38,146 nt of DNA from Candidatus Caldarchaeum sp. (GTDB lineage Archaea; Thermoproteota; Nitrososphaeria_A; Caldarchaeales; Caldarchaeaceae). The notes beneath the pieces are model-generated. The model had not been told where the DNA came from. It worked only from the letters and a program-made list of their open reading frames with translations, and ran no database searches. Each line of letters begins with the position of its first letter. The first letter of the stretch is position 1. A program made the translations under genes and the position numbers. The DNA lies in contig JANWZT010000002.1 in NCBI GenBank assembly GCA_025054515.1, positions 1 to 38,146 of the forward strand, written 5' to 3'. This document shows, piece by piece, positions 1,975 through 18,679 of this stretch.

Positions 1975-2679
1975 ATGCGTGTTCGACGCTATGGCTTGGG
2001 GAAAGAATGGGGCAAGGTCGTAGCCGCCTTGCAGAACCTCGTTCAAGTCTATGACAGACTCAATCAGACCATTTCCTTCAATTCAGACCTAAAACTTCGG
2101 GCCGAATGCATCGACGGTAAAATAGAAAGCGGTCACAGGGTTTTGGACGCTGGATGTGGTAACGGAGTTTTTTCTCGTATTTTGTTTCAAAAACAGCCCG
2201 CGGTCGGCGAGGTTGTTCTTCTCGACGCCCTCGCCCCTATGCTAAGGCAGGCTGTCGCCAACATACCCGTCGCCAGGACGCACGCAGTTTTGGCGGTTTT
2301 CGAATACATGCCCTTCCGGGACAAGGCCTTCGATTCCGTGCTGATGGGGTTTTCTTTGCGGGATGCGATAGACATGGAGACTGCCATGTCTGAAGTGAAG
2401 AGGGTGACCAAAGAACGCGGCCGGCTTCTTATCGTCGACCTCGGTAAGCCAGCCAATTTTTTCAAAACATTTTTGATAAGTTTTTACTGGTTTGTTTTAG
2501 CCCCGTTTTTCGCCGTCCTTAGACTTGGAAAAGTGGGTTTGAATGTATCAGCAATACACACGACATACAAACGCCTACCGACAAACGGAGATTTGAAAAG
2601 ACTCGCCAACAAGTTTTTTCACCTTGTAGAGGTCCGAGAGAAAATGATGGGCGCGGCCATCATCATGTACGCCGAATAA
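1975..2679 (+). CDS. UbiE/MenG-like SAM-dependent methyltransferase
   Basis: VLDAGCGNGVFSRIL (motif I), then MGFSLRDAIDMETAMSEVKRVTKERGRLLIVDLGKP, closely resembling the UbiE/MenG post-motif region. Confidence 0.75.
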   Translation: MRVRRYGLGKEWGKVVAALQNLVQVYDRLNQTISFNSDLKLRAECIDGKIESGHRVLDAGCGNGVFSRILFQKQPAVGEVVLLDALAPMLRQAVANIPVARTHAVLAVFEYMPFRDKAFDSVLMGFSLRDAIDMETAMSEVKRVTKERGRLLIVDLGKPANFFKTFLISFYWFVLAPFFAVLRLGKVGLNVSAIHTTYKRLPTNGDLKRLANKFFHLVEVREKMMGAAIIMYAE

Positions 2680-2736: not shown

Positions 2737-4200
2737 ATGGAAACGACCGACGTCGACAAACCACTTTTTTTAACCGGCCACTCCGTATTCGACCAGATTT
2801 TCTACCTCAGACGCGGTATGACCGTTCTTCTTTCTGACGAAACTTTCAGCGAAGGCCGTTCCTTTCTCCGCGTGCTTCTGAAAAACCATCGTTCATCAAT
2901 GTATGAACTTGTTTCAGCACGGTTCCATCTTGCGGAGTCAAACCAGTTTTCTGTACCCGTTGAATCGCTACAAGACCTTTCCATATACGTCAACCAAAAA
3001 AGGAGAACAGAAAAAGGAAAAATCTTTGTACATCTCTATCTGCCCGAACTGCTGATCCGCCACAGTCCCGAAGAAGTTCTTAAAGTCATGGAGCTATGGC
3101 AGAAGGACGTCCTCAACGCGGGAAACATCGAGTTCTACCTCCTTCCACGCAACACCTTCGCCGATTTTGAAAGAAAAGCACGGGCAATAGTCGACGCCGT
3201 TATCGACATTCAGGTTGTGAAACAGGAAACCCGGTTTCTTTACTACTTTACTCCGATGAGGTCTTGTTCCCCGAGACATCATCTCAAAGGTGTCCAGTTT
3301 GAAATTTCAGATTCTAAGCTGCTTATCGAATGGGAAGGCGTTCTCGTCGATTCGCTTCCCTCCAAGATCGTTACCGCGAGCGACATCAGGAAGAAAATCG
3401 AGACAAAAGAGAAGGAAATGGTTTTGAAAGTCAACAACATCGAACCCGACGTCCTGACGGTTAACGACTACGTTATACTCACCAGCTTGGATGGCATGCC
3501 GTTGTGGACGGTCAAGATGTTGTACCCCGATAGATGGCCTGAGGTGGAGGAGAAGATTATACAATGGGCTGTGAGCGGAGTTCTGGGCTTTGACGAAGCT
3601 AAGTCCGAGAAAGTATACGAAAGCCGAAAAGGCCTGAAGTTGAGGAATCGACTTCTTCTCAGCGTTCCTACACAAATTGCGTTGTATTTGGTTTCTTTGT
3701 CAAAGGGTTTCTTGGGAAAACGTGTGAGAACAGTACCCTTAGACGCCCACCTGGCTGTGCTCGAAGCCATGAAAAACATCGTCGACTTGGCTTCCGCCAA
3801 AAACCCGGAAGTGAAAAGGGAGGCGAAGCTGGCGACGAGATATTTTGGCGAATTGTCTGCGAGGAAGACTGCCCTCGAATATGTCATCAGGCTCGAGGGA
3901 ACCCCCTATACAAACTTCCGACTCGAGTATGCTCCGAAGCTGGTGGCCATCAGTTTGAAAGCGGGCTGGGGGCTGGACGTCAATTTTATCTCCGAAGAGA
4001 AAGATAGCTGGCTTTTCGAGATCAAAAAATGTCATCTCTGTGAAGATGCGCATAGCAATGAGCCGTTTTGCGATAAGTTTGTGTCGAGCGTTGTTTCGGG
4101 TGTTTTGGGTGTCTGTTTGAAAAGACAGGTCGAATGTCATGAGATAACATGCAGGGCCATGGGGTCTGATAAATGTACTTTTAGGGCGTCTCTGGTCTGA
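2737..4200 (+). CDS. Degenerate KaiC/RAD55-like domain fused to a C-terminal V4R (4-vinyl reductase) domain
   Basis: N-terminal region aligns by eye with the KaiC-like protein at 6256-7008 but lacks a Walker A (SDETFSEGRSFL). C-terminus CHLCEDAHSNEPFCDKF...VECHEITCRAMGSDKCTF is V4R-like. Confidence 0.65.
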   Translation: METTDVDKPLFLTGHSVFDQIFYLRRGMTVLLSDETFSEGRSFLRVLLKNHRSSMYELVSARFHLAESNQFSVPVESLQDLSIYVNQKRRTEKGKIFVHLYLPELLIRHSPEEVLKVMELWQKDVLNAGNIEFYLLPRNTFADFERKARAIVDAVIDIQVVKQETRFLYYFTPMRSCSPRHHLKGVQFEISDSKLLIEWEGVLVDSLPSKIVTASDIRKKIETKEKEMVLKVNNIEPDVLTVNDYVILTSLDGMPLWTVKMLYPDRWPEVEEKIIQWAVSGVLGFDEAKSEKVYESRKGLKLRNRLLLSVPTQIALYLVSLSKGFLGKRVRTVPLDAHLAVLEAMKNIVDLASAKNPEVKREAKLATRYFGELSARKTALEYVIRLEGTPYTNFRLEYAPKLVAISLKAGWGLDVNFISEEKDSWLFEIKKCHLCEDAHSNEPFCDKFVSSVVSGVLGVCLKRQVECHEITCRAMGSDKCTFRASLV

Positions 4201-4218: not shown

Positions 4219-5070
4219 TTGAAGCTGTCGAGATGGGAGAAGATAAAGGGGATCGCGGCTCTTCCGAAATCCTATTTCTCTCTCTTTACATCGCCTTTGA
4301 TCGCTTCATCGACGATTTATGTAGTGACGGGCGGCGTCGTTGAAACAACCTTTTTACTCGGTATGTTTTTCTTTCTTTCAACGGCTTTTCTAAACTCCTT
4401 CAACAACATAATGGATACTAGGTCCGATCGCCTTACGAAGCAAAATTTCCCCCTTCCGAACGGTTTGGTAACTGTTAAACAGGCCGCGTTATTTTCGGCG
4501 GGCTTGTTTTCCGCGGCCTTTTTCGTCGCTACCGCCGGTTCGACACGATTCGCAACAACCAGCTACATTTTACTTTTCAATCTTTTGTTAGCGTTTCTAT
4601 ATTCAGCGCCGGTGATCAGGCTGAAACGCTATCCCATCGTCAAGGCCACGGTATTGATAGCACACACCGTTTTTCTACCCATGGCTGCGGCTGCGACGGC
4701 CGTCAACCGAGACATAACGTCGCACCTGCCTGTCGCGGCTCCCGTTTACCTGATGGGCCTCGCCATCCACACCATCCAAGACATCGGAGACGTCGCGGGC
4801 GATAGGCTGGTCGGCGACAAAACTTTTCCTATCCTTTTGGGAGTTAGGCGTTCGCTGGTCATCGTCTTGGCCCTGCTTCTCGGTGCAGGTGTTTCCGCTT
4901 GGTTTGTATCAGATAGTTTGCGATTTCCCGTCATGTTTGGTTTAGTCTCGATGGGTCTACTCGTATCCACGCTGTTCCTTCACCCCGGTCGGTGGAAGCA
5001 GGTGTTCTGGGGATGTTCGTTTTTGTCTTTTTTTGTCTTAATGCTGTTATTGGTCGAAACCTTTAGATGA
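4219..5070 (+). CDS. UbiA-family prenyltransferase
   Basis: Multi-TM protein with NNIMDTRSD (NxxxDxxxD) and DIGDVAGDRLVGDKTFPI (second Asp-rich motif). TTG start. Confidence 0.88.
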   Translation: MKLSRWEKIKGIAALPKSYFSLFTSPLIASSTIYVVTGGVVETTFLLGMFFFLSTAFLNSFNNIMDTRSDRLTKQNFPLPNGLVTVKQAALFSAGLFSAAFFVATAGSTRFATTSYILLFNLLLAFLYSAPVIRLKRYPIVKATVLIAHTVFLPMAAAATAVNRDITSHLPVAAPVYLMGLAIHTIQDIGDVAGDRLVGDKTFPILLGVRRSLVIVLALLLGAGVSAWFVSDSLRFPVMFGLVSMGLLVSTLFLHPGRWKQVFWGCSFLSFFVLMLLLVETFR

Positions 5071-6223
5071 GTTGCGAATAACGCATTAACTCCTTTGGGA
5101 CACGAGCCACGAGGAAGTCGAGGAAATGACTGGGGTTCTTTGATTTGAAGAACCACTTTCGAACCGTGAAGATCCGGAAGACGTTCATCGATGCGAGCAA
5201 GCTTTCTTGATTAAACGCTATGTATTTCGACGCTTGACGCAGATATTCAACTCCGAGAAGGTAGTGAAGGTCTCCAAGACGTATAGTATATCTTTTGAGG
5301 AGGTCGTTCGTCAGCGATTCTTCGGGGTTCGCGATGATCCCCAAATCTTTCCCGAGGTAGACGACGCTGTTCCAGATGCCGAGTTTCAGGTCTACTTCAA
5401 GGTCTGCGACGTCGTCGTAGTAGTTGGAGGATTTGAAGACGTAGTCGAAGCCTTTCCTGATGTATTCGAACCCTTTGTAATCGAGTTCGGTTTTTTCGCT
5501 GATGTGCTCGAGCATGCAGAGGTCAAGCCCGACCCAGACTCTTCCGACGCCTTTCTCGTTCATGTTCTTCAGGTAGTCGTGAATCGTCAGTTTATGCCTA
5601 ACCGCTTCATTCTGCTGTCGAAAAGTCGCGTTCTGTCCCGAAATATACAGTTCGAAGTCTTTGAAGAATGAATTGCGCATGACCGATGCTGTGTTGGTTT
5701 TTTTGTTAAGCCATTTGTTAACGAGTGCTGCAAGGGCTATGCAGGAATTTTCTGCTCTTCCTATGAAGTCGGTTTCTTCCGCTATGATGTATTGTCCGCG
5801 TGTTACCGCGTGCAGCTGTCGCTGAAGGGATGCTTCAGCCTGCTCTGTGGTGTGAAACGTGTCGTTGATGTTGTCGAGAACTTTGATGCTAAGTATCAGC
5901 GCCATCTTCGCTAAAACAGTTGAAAATATTTCGCTTCGAGATGCTTTCCTTTCCAGTAGCGGGTACGCCGAAATCGTCGCCATGTAGGCCGAATATGGAA
6001 GATATTTCTTTTTCATGACGCCAGCTGTCAGCATTTCGTCGTAGCTTGCTACGTGTTTGTTTTGGAGCATGGTGTGCATGCTCTTCTCGAAATAGGTCGA
6101 TGCCTCCCGGATTATCGAAAGCATATTTCTAAGGTTGGTTTTGTTGCCGGCGATGTACCGTAGCATGGCGAGTCCAGCTGATTTGGTAAAATAGTCTAAC
6201 CCCTCCCCCCTACTTTGGCTCAC
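5063..6223 (-). CDS. Divergent class-I isoprenoid-synthase-fold protein (terpene/prenyl synthase-like)
   Basis: All-alpha 386 aa protein with two Asp-rich motifs: KVLDNINDTFH and YYDDVADLEVDLKLGIWN. Neighbour of ubiA. Confidence 0.5.
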   Translation of the reverse strand: MSQSRGEGLDYFTKSAGLAMLRYIAGNKTNLRNMLSIIREASTYFEKSMHTMLQNKHVASYDEMLTAGVMKKKYLPYSAYMATISAYPLLERKASRSEIFSTVLAKMALILSIKVLDNINDTFHTTEQAEASLQRQLHAVTRGQYIIAEETDFIGRAENSCIALAALVNKWLNKKTNTASVMRNSFFKDFELYISGQNATFRQQNEAVRHKLTIHDYLKNMNEKGVGRVWVGLDLCMLEHISEKTELDYKGFEYIRKGFDYVFKSSNYYDDVADLEVDLKLGIWNSVVYLGKDLGIIANPEESLTNDLLKRYTIRLGDLHYLLGVEYLRQASKYIAFNQESLLASMNVFRIFTVRKWFFKSKNPSHFLDFLVARVPKELMRYSQLI

Positions 6224-6255: not shown

Positions 6256-7008
6256 TCATAAAACTTTCTCGGTTGGGAAGACTTCCAGCCCTCCCCGCGT
6301 AAACCGGTATGGATGCGGTTCGACGTTGTGGTTAACCCCTCTCATCTTCTCCACTTGGATGGACCTGACGATGGCTGAATTTTTGCCCTGTTTCCTCAAT
6401 ATGATCACGCCGTCTGCGAGGAATTCTTCAAACTGGTAGGGCCTGTCCATCCCGCTGAAGCGTAGCTCGGTTAGAAGGATGGTCGTGCAATTGAGTGGTG
6501 TGATTCCTTCCAAAAGTTCCATGAAAGCGGCTCTTCTTTCGGCGCCCCTCGGATACTGGATGAAGAAGGAAGTCAGAGAGTCTATGACGAGCCGTTTCGC
6601 GTTTATGTTGCGGACGTGGTTCGTGACCGCGGCGATGAGGGCCGCAAGTGAAAAATCTTTTTTACCGATCGATATGCCGCCGAGCTTAACCTCTCCGGGT
6701 ATCGTTCGGATTGGCGATGCATCAACTATCGATATGTTGCCTTTCTGGAGAAACTCGGTCAAATCTATTCCGAGGTTGAGGACGTTTCGCAACACGCTTT
6801 CCGGCCTTTCATCTAAGGTAACGTAGACTCCGTTTTCTCCGTTGAGACATCCGTAATAGAGAAACTGAAGGCCGAAAGTTGTCTTTCCCGACCCGGGCGA
6901 GCCCATCACGACGATGTTGAAGCCTGAGGGAAAACCTTTGTTCTCCAATAGAGCGTCCAACCCCATAATCCCCGTGGCGACAAACTGTAGCTTATCCGTC
7001 CTGTTCAC
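6256..7008 (-). CDS. KaiC-like RecA-superfamily ATPase, single domain
   Basis: GIMGLDALLENKGFPSGFNIVVMGSPGSGKTTFGLQFLY (Walker A), KRLVIDSLTSFF (Walker B), VEKMRGVNHNVEPHPYRFTRGGLEVF C-terminal KaiC signature. GTG start. Confidence 0.92.
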   Translation of the reverse strand: MNRTDKLQFVATGIMGLDALLENKGFPSGFNIVVMGSPGSGKTTFGLQFLYYGCLNGENGVYVTLDERPESVLRNVLNLGIDLTEFLQKGNISIVDASPIRTIPGEVKLGGISIGKKDFSLAALIAAVTNHVRNINAKRLVIDSLTSFFIQYPRGAERRAAFMELLEGITPLNCTTILLTELRFSGMDRPYQFEEFLADGVIILRKQGKNSAIVRSIQVEKMRGVNHNVEPHPYRFTRGGLEVFPTEKVL

Positions 7009-7080: not shown

Positions 7081-7899
7081 TTGCTCCGAACGTTTCATTT
7101 GGTTTATCCGGTTTTGGCCACTTTAGCGATGGCCGTGGTTTTTCAGTCCGTGGTGGAGGGAGTCATGCTTCCGCAGCCTCCGATCACACCTTTAGAGGAA
7201 TCGGGCGGCGGGATTACGGAGCTGGTTTCGCCGACACCGTACCTGAATACGTTGACTGTCTTGGCGGTTGTTTTTGCAGGGAGTATGTTGATGATTGCTT
7301 TAATGAAGTTCAGGCGGGTTCTAAGATTTTTCATTATGGCGGTTCTTTTCACAACGTCTTTTGCCGTAACTTTTTTCTATGTTCTCCTCGCTTTTGATGT
7401 CGACTTGAATATAGTTTCGCTTTTCTCTGGCCTCTTGGGTCTAGCCGTGGTTTTAGGCGTGTTCTCTTCCAAAGAATATGTGAATGTCTTGGCATCTGCT
7501 TATGTGGCTTCGTCATGCGGCGTCGTCTTCGGCTCCTCGATGCCGTTTTGGACTTCTCTCGTGCTTCTTGTGGCTATCGCCGTTTATGACTTTGTCGCGG
7601 TCTTCAAAGGCCATCTCAAAATGCTGGGCAAAATCGACATGAACGACGTAAAGGGCTTGGTCGTCAACTACCAAGGCCTTAGCATAGGTCTCGGCGACCT
7701 CTTTTTCTACACGGTTCTTTTCAGTTTCGTGACGACGAACTTCGGCTGGCTCCCGGGGGTAGCGTCGTTGGCTGGACTCGTAGCGGGCTATTTGCTCACG
7801 CTCAAGTTTGCGGAAAAAAGGCCCGTGTTCCCGGGTTTACCGATAACAATCATGACAGCCCTCGCGATATCACTCGTCATCTACTTTCTCATTTTATGA
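7081..7899 (+). CDS. Presenilin/signal-peptide-peptidase-type intramembrane aspartyl protease (PSH family)
   Basis: Polytopic membrane protein with VAIAVYDFVAVF (YD), GLSIGLGDLFFYTV (GxGD) and FPGLPITI (PAL-like). TTG start. Confidence 0.88.
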   Translation: MLRTFHLVYPVLATLAMAVVFQSVVEGVMLPQPPITPLEESGGGITELVSPTPYLNTLTVLAVVFAGSMLMIALMKFRRVLRFFIMAVLFTTSFAVTFFYVLLAFDVDLNIVSLFSGLLGLAVVLGVFSSKEYVNVLASAYVASSCGVVFGSSMPFWTSLVLLVAIAVYDFVAVFKGHLKMLGKIDMNDVKGLVVNYQGLSIGLGDLFFYTVLFSFVTTNFGWLPGVASLAGLVAGYLLTLKFAEKRPVFPGLPITIMTALAISLVIYFLIL

Positions 7900-8771
7900 C
7901 CATGTATTCCCCCGAAGAGATCGCCCGATGCTGCACTTCAGCCCTGCTGCTCGAGCTCGCCACCACCCCGAAGCCCGGGTTGGTTGACAGAAATTCGGCG
8001 CCGGAGCCTTATTCGCAGTTCATCGCATCCGCCGTGTCCCTTTACCGCCATTTTAGACAGGCCGCAGCCGGAGCTTCGGTCGGAAAAGTCGTTGTCCGCG
8101 CCGCGGAGGACATGATGAAAATACAGACCGGCGGAAACACCCATCTCGGAGCGCTTCTACTTCTCACACCGTTGGCAAAAGCCGCTGCTCGAACTGAGAA
8201 ATTTTCGGAACTGAGGCCTACGGTTTTAACTGTTTTAGAGAAGATGAACAGCGTTGACATGGCGCTGATTCTGCAGGCGGTTCGGGCTGTGAACCCGGGA
8301 GGGCTTGGACGCGTGGCCTTTCTCGACGTCAAATCACCGAGAACACGTAAAATCGTCCTCAAAAGGCGTCTATCTGTCCTCGACGGCTTCTCCCCTTACC
8401 GACGTATGGAGGTCGTAGCCCACGAATACACCACGGGTTACGAGGCAAGTTTCGTGCACGGATATCTGTACCTTAGAAGGAGGCTTCAACACGAGGACTG
8501 GAACACCGCCGGCGTAAACACTTTCCTCAACATCCTCAGCCATCTGCCCGACAGCCACATCTCCCGCAGGTTCGGGCCAGCGACCTCACGGATGATTTCA
8601 CGGCTCGCCAAACGTGTCCTTGACTCCGGAGGATACACGACTGATGAAGGCCGTAAAAACTACGAACAATTCGCGCAACGAATAAAAGCCGCAGGGTTCA
8701 AGCCGGCGGCCACGGCGGACCTTCTCGCCGTCTCCTACATGATTCTTCTTCTCAGCGGCTGGAGACCTTGA
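7896..8771 (+). CDS. CitG/MdcB-family (triphosphoribosyl-dephospho-CoA synthase-like) protein
   Basis: TPKPGLVDRNSAPEPYSQFIASA and GGNTHLGALLLLTPLA match CitG family motifs. ATGA overlap with the preceding gene. Confidence 0.8.
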   Translation: MTMYSPEEIARCCTSALLLELATTPKPGLVDRNSAPEPYSQFIASAVSLYRHFRQAAAGASVGKVVVRAAEDMMKIQTGGNTHLGALLLLTPLAKAAARTEKFSELRPTVLTVLEKMNSVDMALILQAVRAVNPGGLGRVAFLDVKSPRTRKIVLKRRLSVLDGFSPYRRMEVVAHEYTTGYEASFVHGYLYLRRRLQHEDWNTAGVNTFLNILSHLPDSHISRRFGPATSRMISRLAKRVLDSGGYTTDEGRKNYEQFAQRIKAAGFKPAATADLLAVSYMILLLSGWRP

Positions 8772-17314: not shown

Positions 17315-18679
17315 TCATTCTGAGAAACGTCTCAGATAAGCGTTGATCCCGGGTTTTCGTTTGAGGCTTTCCTCAGTCATCTTACGGACTTTCCCGTAAA
17401 TCTTGGATTCGAAAAATGGTCTGTCGAATGCTCCGAAGCACCAGCTTATTCCGAGGTAGCTGTTGGGGTCGACGCCGTCGAGGCCGTATCTATCATTTAG
17501 GTAGACAGCATATTCGAACGCGGTTCGCGGATGCTCCGTCCATTCGATGATCTTTTTGCACCAGTACATGCGCATGTAGTTGTGGATTTTGCCGGTTCGG
17601 ACGAGCTCTGTCTGGGCGGCATTCCAGTATCTGTCGTGGGTTCGGGCTTTCTCCAGCTCCTTCAAGCTGTAAACATATTCACGTCGGTCCCCAACATGTG
17701 CTTCGAGAGTCTGTTTAGCCCATTCAGGAAGGCCGTCAAAAGTACCAAAACCCGGGTTGTAGACCGCGGCGTTGCGGGCCAACTCCCTCCAAACCACGAG
17801 CTCGTTGACAAGACTTTGTACATTCACGTCATCGAACCTGTAAACCCTGAAGACTTCACGCAACATTTGGACCGGGGAAATCATCCCCCACCTCAGATAA
17901 GGGCTCAGCTCCGAAGATGCTTCGACACCCGGGTCCGAACGGTTTTCGGCGTAAATCTTCAGCCTCTCCCCAACAAACAGGCTTAGTCGACGGAAAGCCT
18001 CGTCCTCTCCGCCGACAAAATAGTCGACCGGCTCCACCGTCAAGTCAACCTCCAAGCCCTTGACATAATCTTCGACGGATTCTTCGTCCCAACTCGGTAT
18101 GTCCAGCGACAGCGAAGAAATTTCAAGCCTTATGGTAGGGATGTCTTCGAGGAATTTTTCTAAGTTCTTCATTATTTTCGGCCTTATGGTTCGTGCGTAG
18201 GGCTCGGCCTTCTGGGAAACGACTTCGACGGGGACGACCACATCTCCTTCGACCATCGCAACTTCGGCCTCCGAATTTTCCACGACCGCGTCGATGAATT
18301 TTCTCTGGTGATTGAGGTAAGGCTTGTCGACAACCACGTAGGAAGCTTCTTTCAGCAACGGCAAGAAATCGTAGTTTTTGCGGACCACAAGCTTGACATT
18401 CCTTTTCCCGAGAGCGTCTCTCATTTTCAGTATGTTTTCTAGCATGAACCGGAACCTTCTCAGGTTGGGATGTGGTTTTTTCTCGATAACCGGAAAGATG
18501 ACAATTGCGGGTTTCTTCTGCTGGTTGGCCTTGTGTAAGGTGTATTCGAGGGCGTGGTTGTGATGTGTTCGATGCGATGCGTACATCACGTAGGCCACAA
18601 AATCTCCACGGCCGTCATCCGAAACATCCTTGAGAACACGAACCCGCTCAGGCCTCATCCAGCCCGGTGCGGCAGGCAT
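17315..18679 (-). CDS. phr: Class II CPD deoxyribodipyrimidine photolyase
   Basis: SELSPYLRWGMISP, YWNAAQTELVRTGKIHNYMRMYWCKKIIEW, DRYGLDGVDPNSYLGISWCFGAFDRPF. Confidence 0.92.
   Translation of the reverse strand: MPAAPGWMRPERVRVLKDVSDDGRGDFVAYVMYASHRTHHNHALEYTLHKANQQKKPAIVIFPVIEKKPHPNLRRFRFMLENILKMRDALGKRNVKLVVRKNYDFLPLLKEASYVVVDKPYLNHQRKFIDAVVENSEAEVAMVEGDVVVPVEVVSQKAEPYARTIRPKIMKNLEKFLEDIPTIRLEISSLSLDIPSWDEESVEDYVKGLEVDLTVEPVDYFVGGEDEAFRRLSLFVGERLKIYAENRSDPGVEASSELSPYLRWGMISPVQMLREVFRVYRFDDVNVQSLVNELVVWRELARNAAVYNPGFGTFDGLPEWAKQTLEAHVGDRREYVYSLKELEKARTHDRYWNAAQTELVRTGKIHNYMRMYWCKKIIEWTEHPRTAFEYAVYLNDRYGLDGVDPNSYLGISWCFGAFDRPFFESKIYGKVRKMTEESLKRKPGINAYLRRFSE

Follow-up and report, generated by a model that had tools for sequence, protein, structure and literature searches.

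Genomic locus and protein family

The window analyzed here is the whole 38,146-nucleotide stretch formed by positions 1 to 38,146 of contig JANWZT010000002.1 (assembly GCA_025054515.1), from a MAG of a Caldarchaeales-type archaeon, Candidatus Caldarchaeum sp. (1.54 Mb, 349 contigs, 82% complete). A prediction made from the nucleotide sequence alone had placed a highly divergent class I isoprenoid synthase-like protein at positions 5063 to 6223, next to ubiA, and had left the strand unstated. The predicted open reading frame is real. It lies on the minus strand, encodes 386 amino acids (aa), and begins with a GTG codon that aligns with the ATG of close relatives. Its neighbor is indeed a gene for a UbiA-family membrane prenyltransferase (4219 to 5070, plus strand; PF01040, E = 2.7e-27), and the two genes are arranged tail to tail, their 3' ends overlapping by 8 bp. 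The 386-aa protein, here called the target, contains no membrane-like segment (maximum Kyte-Doolittle-19 value of 1.67 versus 2.38 for UbiA). On the far side of ubiA lies a partner gene (2737 to 4200, plus strand) encoding a protein of ∼487 aa with a C-terminal, Cys-rich V4R domain (PF02830) and an unannotated N-terminal two-thirds, next to a gene for a UbiE/COQ5-like methyltransferase (1975 to 2679, plus strand). Upstream of the target, on the same strand and after a gap of 32 nucleotides, is a gene for a KaiC-family ATPase (6256 to 7008, minus strand).

Profile searches of 398 Thermoproteota genomes recovered a target family of 16 members, distributed over 7 of 163 genera and at least six families and sharing 26 to 70% identity with the target. 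The nearest public relative, at 70% identity, is annotated as Candidatus Caldarchaeum subterraneum. Values of dN/dS ranged from 0.06 to 0.17 in close family pairs with unsaturated Ks, and the family is under strong purifying selection. No family member has a meaningful Pfam match, even at E = 10; the target has no NCBIfam match; neither its single sequence nor the family profile matched any PDB chain; and two scans of viral contigs found no relatives. The family is conserved in archaea yet unannotated.

The V4R partner and gene neighborhood

A V4R protein of ∼480 aa is encoded beside the target, either adjacent to it or one gene away, at all 16 loci, with varying relative orientation. Across the 398 genomes, full-length copies of the partner are present in all 16 that carry the target and absent from all 382 others. 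Protein distances of target and partner are correlated, with r = 0.96 over all pairs and 0.33 between families. Hydrophobic ligand binding and signaling have been proposed for V4R domains (PMC2253512). The relatives of the partner found by sequence in the PDB are MJ1460 and, weakly, MopR. Its N-terminal region bears a weak likeness to a P-loop-less or degenerate KaiC domain; at a nonsignificant hhalign P value of 0.06, this assignment is only suggestive. A second V4R partner paralogue is encoded in three of the 16 target-bearing genomes. Where it occurs in Caldarchaeum (L136, 551 to 1957; L137, 537 to 2015), this paralogue lies tail to tail with a gene that we named by eye as a putative NADH-dehydrogenase (NuoL-type) subunit gene.

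The genes that accompany the pair differ between lineages. Eight loci have a gene between target and partner, which encodes UbiA in four, an HAD phosphatase in three, and a GGR-superfamily flavoenzyme in one; at the remaining eight, an HAD phosphatase gene lies beside the V4R partner. These phosphatases belong to two subfamilies (PGP-like and PSP-like) in four lineages and are found, for instance, at L098 (9220 to 9915), L096 (10802 to 11596), L094 (10923 to 11699), and L089 (5867 to 6535). The UbiE/COQ5-like methyltransferase gene is conserved at the four UbiA-type loci, and a KaiC-family ATPase gene is near the target at 8 of the 16.

Elsewhere, the source genome encodes two canonical polyprenyl synthases and one squalene/phytoene synthase (SQS_PSY), and its UbiA hits number six, the one beside the target included. 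Since canonical synthases are already present, the target comes on top of the housekeeping enzymes. The SQS_PSY gene (G000:C335, 2898 to 4477) has another ubiA gene directly after it, with which it may form a carotenoid-type pair, and lies apart from the target locus.

Conserved residues and motifs

The alignment of the 16 family members has 39 invariant columns, with the core of conservation in two Asp motifs. Both had been quoted correctly in the original prediction, as LDNINDTFH (residues 116 to 124) and YYDDVADLEVDLKLGIWN (residues 268 to 285). The first has the family consensus K114-x-L-D117-N118-[IL]-N120-D121 and reads L116-D117-N118-I-N120-D121 in the target (5861 to 5878, minus strand; KxLDN[IL]ND, invariant). 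The second has the consensus F263-K264-x4-Y269-D270-D271-[VI]-x-D274-x3-D278; in the target, D270-D271-V-A-D274-x-x-x-D278 (5390 to 5416, minus strand) shows NSE/DTE spacing. Because the Asp positions of both motifs are invariant in 16 of 16 members, the motifs are not chance runs of Asp.

Several further invariant residues fall into short blocks, all encoded on the minus strand. K71-x-K73 (6005 to 6013) lies 46 residues before D117, at the position of the basic GGKR cluster of polyprenyl synthases. A157-E158-N159 (5747 to 5755) is placed by hhalign on the polyprenyl synthase AGN motif and precedes Q197 by 38 residues (canonically 37 to 39), and G196-Q197 (5633 to 5638) aligns with the GQ motif. 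K224 (5552 to 5554) aligns with the Lys of the KT motif and lies 46 residues before D270 (44 to 48 across the family), where class I enzymes have their diphosphate sensor. A basic motif, R350-x-F-x-x-R355-K356 (5156 to 5176), follows near the C terminus. K106, D189, G227, W230, and D234 are likewise invariant.

Comparison with trans-isoprenyl diphosphate synthases

The target was compared with 28 canonical archaeal polyprenyl synthases (PF00348) from its own clade. In these enzymes, the landmarks GGKR, DDxxD..RR, AGN, GQ, KT, and FQxQDD follow one another at spacings of 39, 29, 37 to 39, 26, and 40 to 41 residues; the corresponding series in the target is K71-46-D117-42-N159-38-Q197-27-K224-46-D270. 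The best local hhalign alignment, computed unguided, simultaneously placed AEN on AGN, GQ on GQ, K224 on the Lys of KT, and D270-D271 on the second DD. When the invariant blocks were scattered at random in a Monte Carlo simulation, the K-D-Q-K-DD spacing, with the AEN step left out, fell within ∼20% of the canonical one in 8 of 100,000 trials (8e-5). This simulation was devised after the motif had been seen, and the landmark spacing therefore counts as support rather than proof.

Overall similarity scores gave no comparable signal. The hhalign score of the target against polyprenyl synthases was reached by 51 of 150 column shuffles and is not above chance; the same holds for the scores against SQS_PSY (31 of 150) and against the class IB enzyme YtpB (55 of 150). 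Searched with the profile hidden Markov models (HMMs) of polyprenyl synthases and SQS_PSY, family members scored at best 2.7 and 5.4 bits, in the wrong register. Although the polyprenyl and squalene profiles both ranked the target family at the top of 76 clusters, the bit scores were negligible and the register was wrong, and we do not count the ranking as proof.

The target thus resembles PF00348 members in being soluble and predicted to be helical and in the order and near-spacing of the basic cluster, first Asp motif, A(G/E)N, GQ, Lys, and DDxxD; the collinearity of the basic cluster, GQ, and KT landmarks was recognized post hoc. It differs from them in having no Pfam, NCBIfam, or HMM match and no significant profile-profile similarity, in 13 extra residues between the first motif and AEN, and in the additional D278 and RxFxxRK. 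The first motif is DNxxD without the RRG that follows the FARM DDx2-4D, and no FQ precedes the second. The original prediction had held that the canonical DDxxD/FQIxDDxxD pair is lacking; this applies to the FQ prefix and to the first motif, whereas D270-D271-V-A-D274 does fit a simple, SARM-type DDxxD. By its residues, the landmark order of the target is closest to that of trans-isoprenyl diphosphate synthases.

Comparison with terpene synthases, UbiA, and SQS_PSY

In class I terpene synthases, the basic residue that senses the diphosphate lies 46 residues before the NSE motif (PMC8450962), the distance at which K224 stands from the second motif in the target. The second motif, DD[VI]xDxxxD, likewise has the (N/D)D(L/I/V) start and four-residue spacing of the triad ND(L,I,V)xSxx(K,R)E. 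The target departs from these enzymes in its DNxxD first motif, in Asp residues at the S/T and E positions of the triad, and in the absence of an HMM match; relative to the DDxx(x)D plus NSE/DTE pair, the spacing is right and the residues are variant.

Motif-level likeness is also shared with class IB terpene synthases and tetraprenyl-beta-curcumene synthases (YtpB and BalTS; PF10776), whose motifs are DYLDNLxD and DY(F,L,W)IDxxED (PMC11234867; PMC7839719). The LDN[LI]xD core and the D...D..(E)D arrangement are common to both, so that LDN[IL]ND and DDxxDxx(E)D agree with the class IB motifs at most fixed positions. Both groups also have an Asn seven residues past the last Asp of the second motif, and the two motifs lie 153 residues apart in the target versus 161 in class IB. 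In the target, an invariant Lys replaces the first Asp of motif 1 and an Asp replaces the Tyr of motif 2, and there is no HMM or profile match. PF10776 did not match the target and yielded only weak fragments, none over the cutoff, in the 398 Thermoproteota genomes. Given this and the nonsignificant profile comparison, we do not file the target in any of the families compared.

UbiA proteins (PF01040) also have DxxxD and (N/D)DxxDxxxD motifs. In the target, their order is reversed, and the protein has neither membrane segments nor a PF01040 match. Squalene/phytoene synthases (PF00494) are helical proteins with two Asp motifs, an arrangement predicted for the target as well; the target has no PF00494 HMM match. 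None of the named families tried in Pfam, NCBIfam, and the PDB, with single sequences and with the profile, matched.

Predicted structure

The single-sequence AlphaFold model of the target had a pLDDT of 35. A model built from two sequences, the target and one relative, reached a pLDDT of 47 and a pTM of 0.46 and is helical throughout; the low-confidence models are thus consistent with the all-alpha fold proposed in the original prediction. Foldseek searches with the two-sequence model returned no significant match (E > 0.3). Among the 50 best matches listed, none of them significant, nearly all of those with the higher probabilities were terpene synthases, led by a diterpene synthase (7e4o, 0.51), a class IB enzyme (6loo, 0.44), and ent-kaurene synthase (4w4r, 0.41). 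The single-sequence model, used as a control, gave no terpene synthase signal and three polyprenyl synthases at probabilities of ≤0.10. We read the terpene synthase matches as no more than a hint.

These leads bear on whether the target might be a noncanonical terpene synthase, a cyclase of class IB-like or another noncanonical class that makes an archaeal terpene. The resemblance of KxLDN[IL]ND and DDxxDxxED to the class IB motifs, the sensor at −46, the 7e4o and 6loo matches, and HAD phosphatases or UbiA as potential tailoring neighbors would all fit such an enzyme. The PF10776 and YtpB comparisons described above speak against it, as do the invariant K71/K73 and GQ, which are features of trans-prenyltransferases. 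We regard cyclization as possible though less probable than not, a subdivision of the broader assignment to class I isoprenoid synthase-type enzymes.

A more radical alternative is that the target is no isoprenoid synthase at all but a metalloprotein or ligand-binding protein of an unrelated, all-alpha type, with Asp motifs that hold metal for another purpose. Its structure models are poor, and no method tried gave statistically significant homology, as would be expected of such a protein. It would leave as coincidences the landmark order and spacing shared with trans-isoprenyl diphosphate synthases, their simultaneous register in the best hhalign alignment, the Foldseek leads, and the isoprenoid-related neighbors, and of the explanations weighed here we find it the least probable.

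Proposed function

We conclude that the target is probably a highly divergent, soluble, active enzyme of the class I isoprenoid synthase type. Its reaction may be cyclization, chain elongation, or head-to-head condensation. What stands of the class I assignment in the original prediction is the motif anatomy, the sensor spacing, the landmark order (8e-5 in the simulation above), and the isoprenoid neighbors; against it, the profile-profile scores do not rise above those of shuffled columns.

Whether the protein is catalytic is a separate question. A noncatalytic relative that binds isoprenoid diphosphates, a pseudoenzyme or a regulatory subunit like those of heteromeric prenyl synthases, could sense isoprenoid status together with the V4R partner. 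The obligate pairing with a protein whose domain is credited with hydrophobic ligands and signaling (PMC2253512) would suit that role, as would DNxxD in place of DDxxD, the two canonical polyprenyl synthases and the SQS_PSY already in the genome, and the KaiC-family ATPase near the target in half of the loci. Known noncatalytic small subunits, however, lack the DDxxD motif (PMC7839719), and in this family the metal- and diphosphate-type residues are all invariant across very divergent members. The invariance of all metal and basic landmarks argues mildly against a pseudoenzyme, which we consider unlikely.

For an active class I enzyme, the conserved residues suggest the following mechanism. 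D117 and D121 on one helix and D270, D274, and D278 on another would coordinate Mg2+ and bind an allylic prenyl diphosphate by its diphosphate group, which the metal would activate, while Q197, K224, and R355/K356 of the C-terminal RxFxxRK would contact the leaving diphosphate. After ionization, the allylic cation would be trapped by a second prenyl unit (condensation), whose diphosphate K71/K73 may bind, or would cyclize. The V4R protein (2737 to 4200) most likely would bind the hydrophobic isoprenoid product or an intermediate, and a neighboring step would fall, according to lineage, to UbiA, a GGR-like enzyme, or an HAD phosphatase.

Because the target gene always lies beside that of the V4R protein or one gene away, we suggest that the two genes form an isoprenoid module, apparently undescribed. 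More tentatively, and with considerable doubt, the pair might represent a hitherto undescribed archaeal class of isoprenoid synthase, in which a dedicated V4R protein always accompanies the enzyme and, as carrier or sensor, binds the isoprenoid that it makes. The two would then form a synthase-receptor pair of Thermoproteota. To our knowledge, the ligands of archaeal V4R domains are largely unknown; the one-to-one tie would make isoprenoids a concrete candidate ligand class. Archaeal membranes, quinones, and terpenes are all built on isoprenoid chemistry. Noncanonical terpene and prenyl synthases missed by sequence searches are known mainly from bacteria and fungi; if the assignment is true, their chemistry would extend to archaea, through a family that has class I anatomy and no model match. 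A phrase search of the open literature found no paper that links terpene synthases to Caldarchaeum or names archaeal terpene synthases.

Other genes in the window

Beyond the KaiC-family gene, positions 7081 to 7899 (plus strand) encode an intramembrane protease of the presenilin/signal peptide peptidase type (PF01080 and PF06550) that diverges from the NCBIfam PSH model (35 bits versus a cutoff of 125). Its gene overlaps by 4 bp with the next (7896 to 8771, plus strand), which encodes an archaeal CitG-type protein of the triphosphoribosyl-dephospho-CoA synthase family (PF01874). Farther along, the protein encoded at positions 17315 to 18679 (minus strand) carries the N-terminal domain of DNA photolyases (PF00875).
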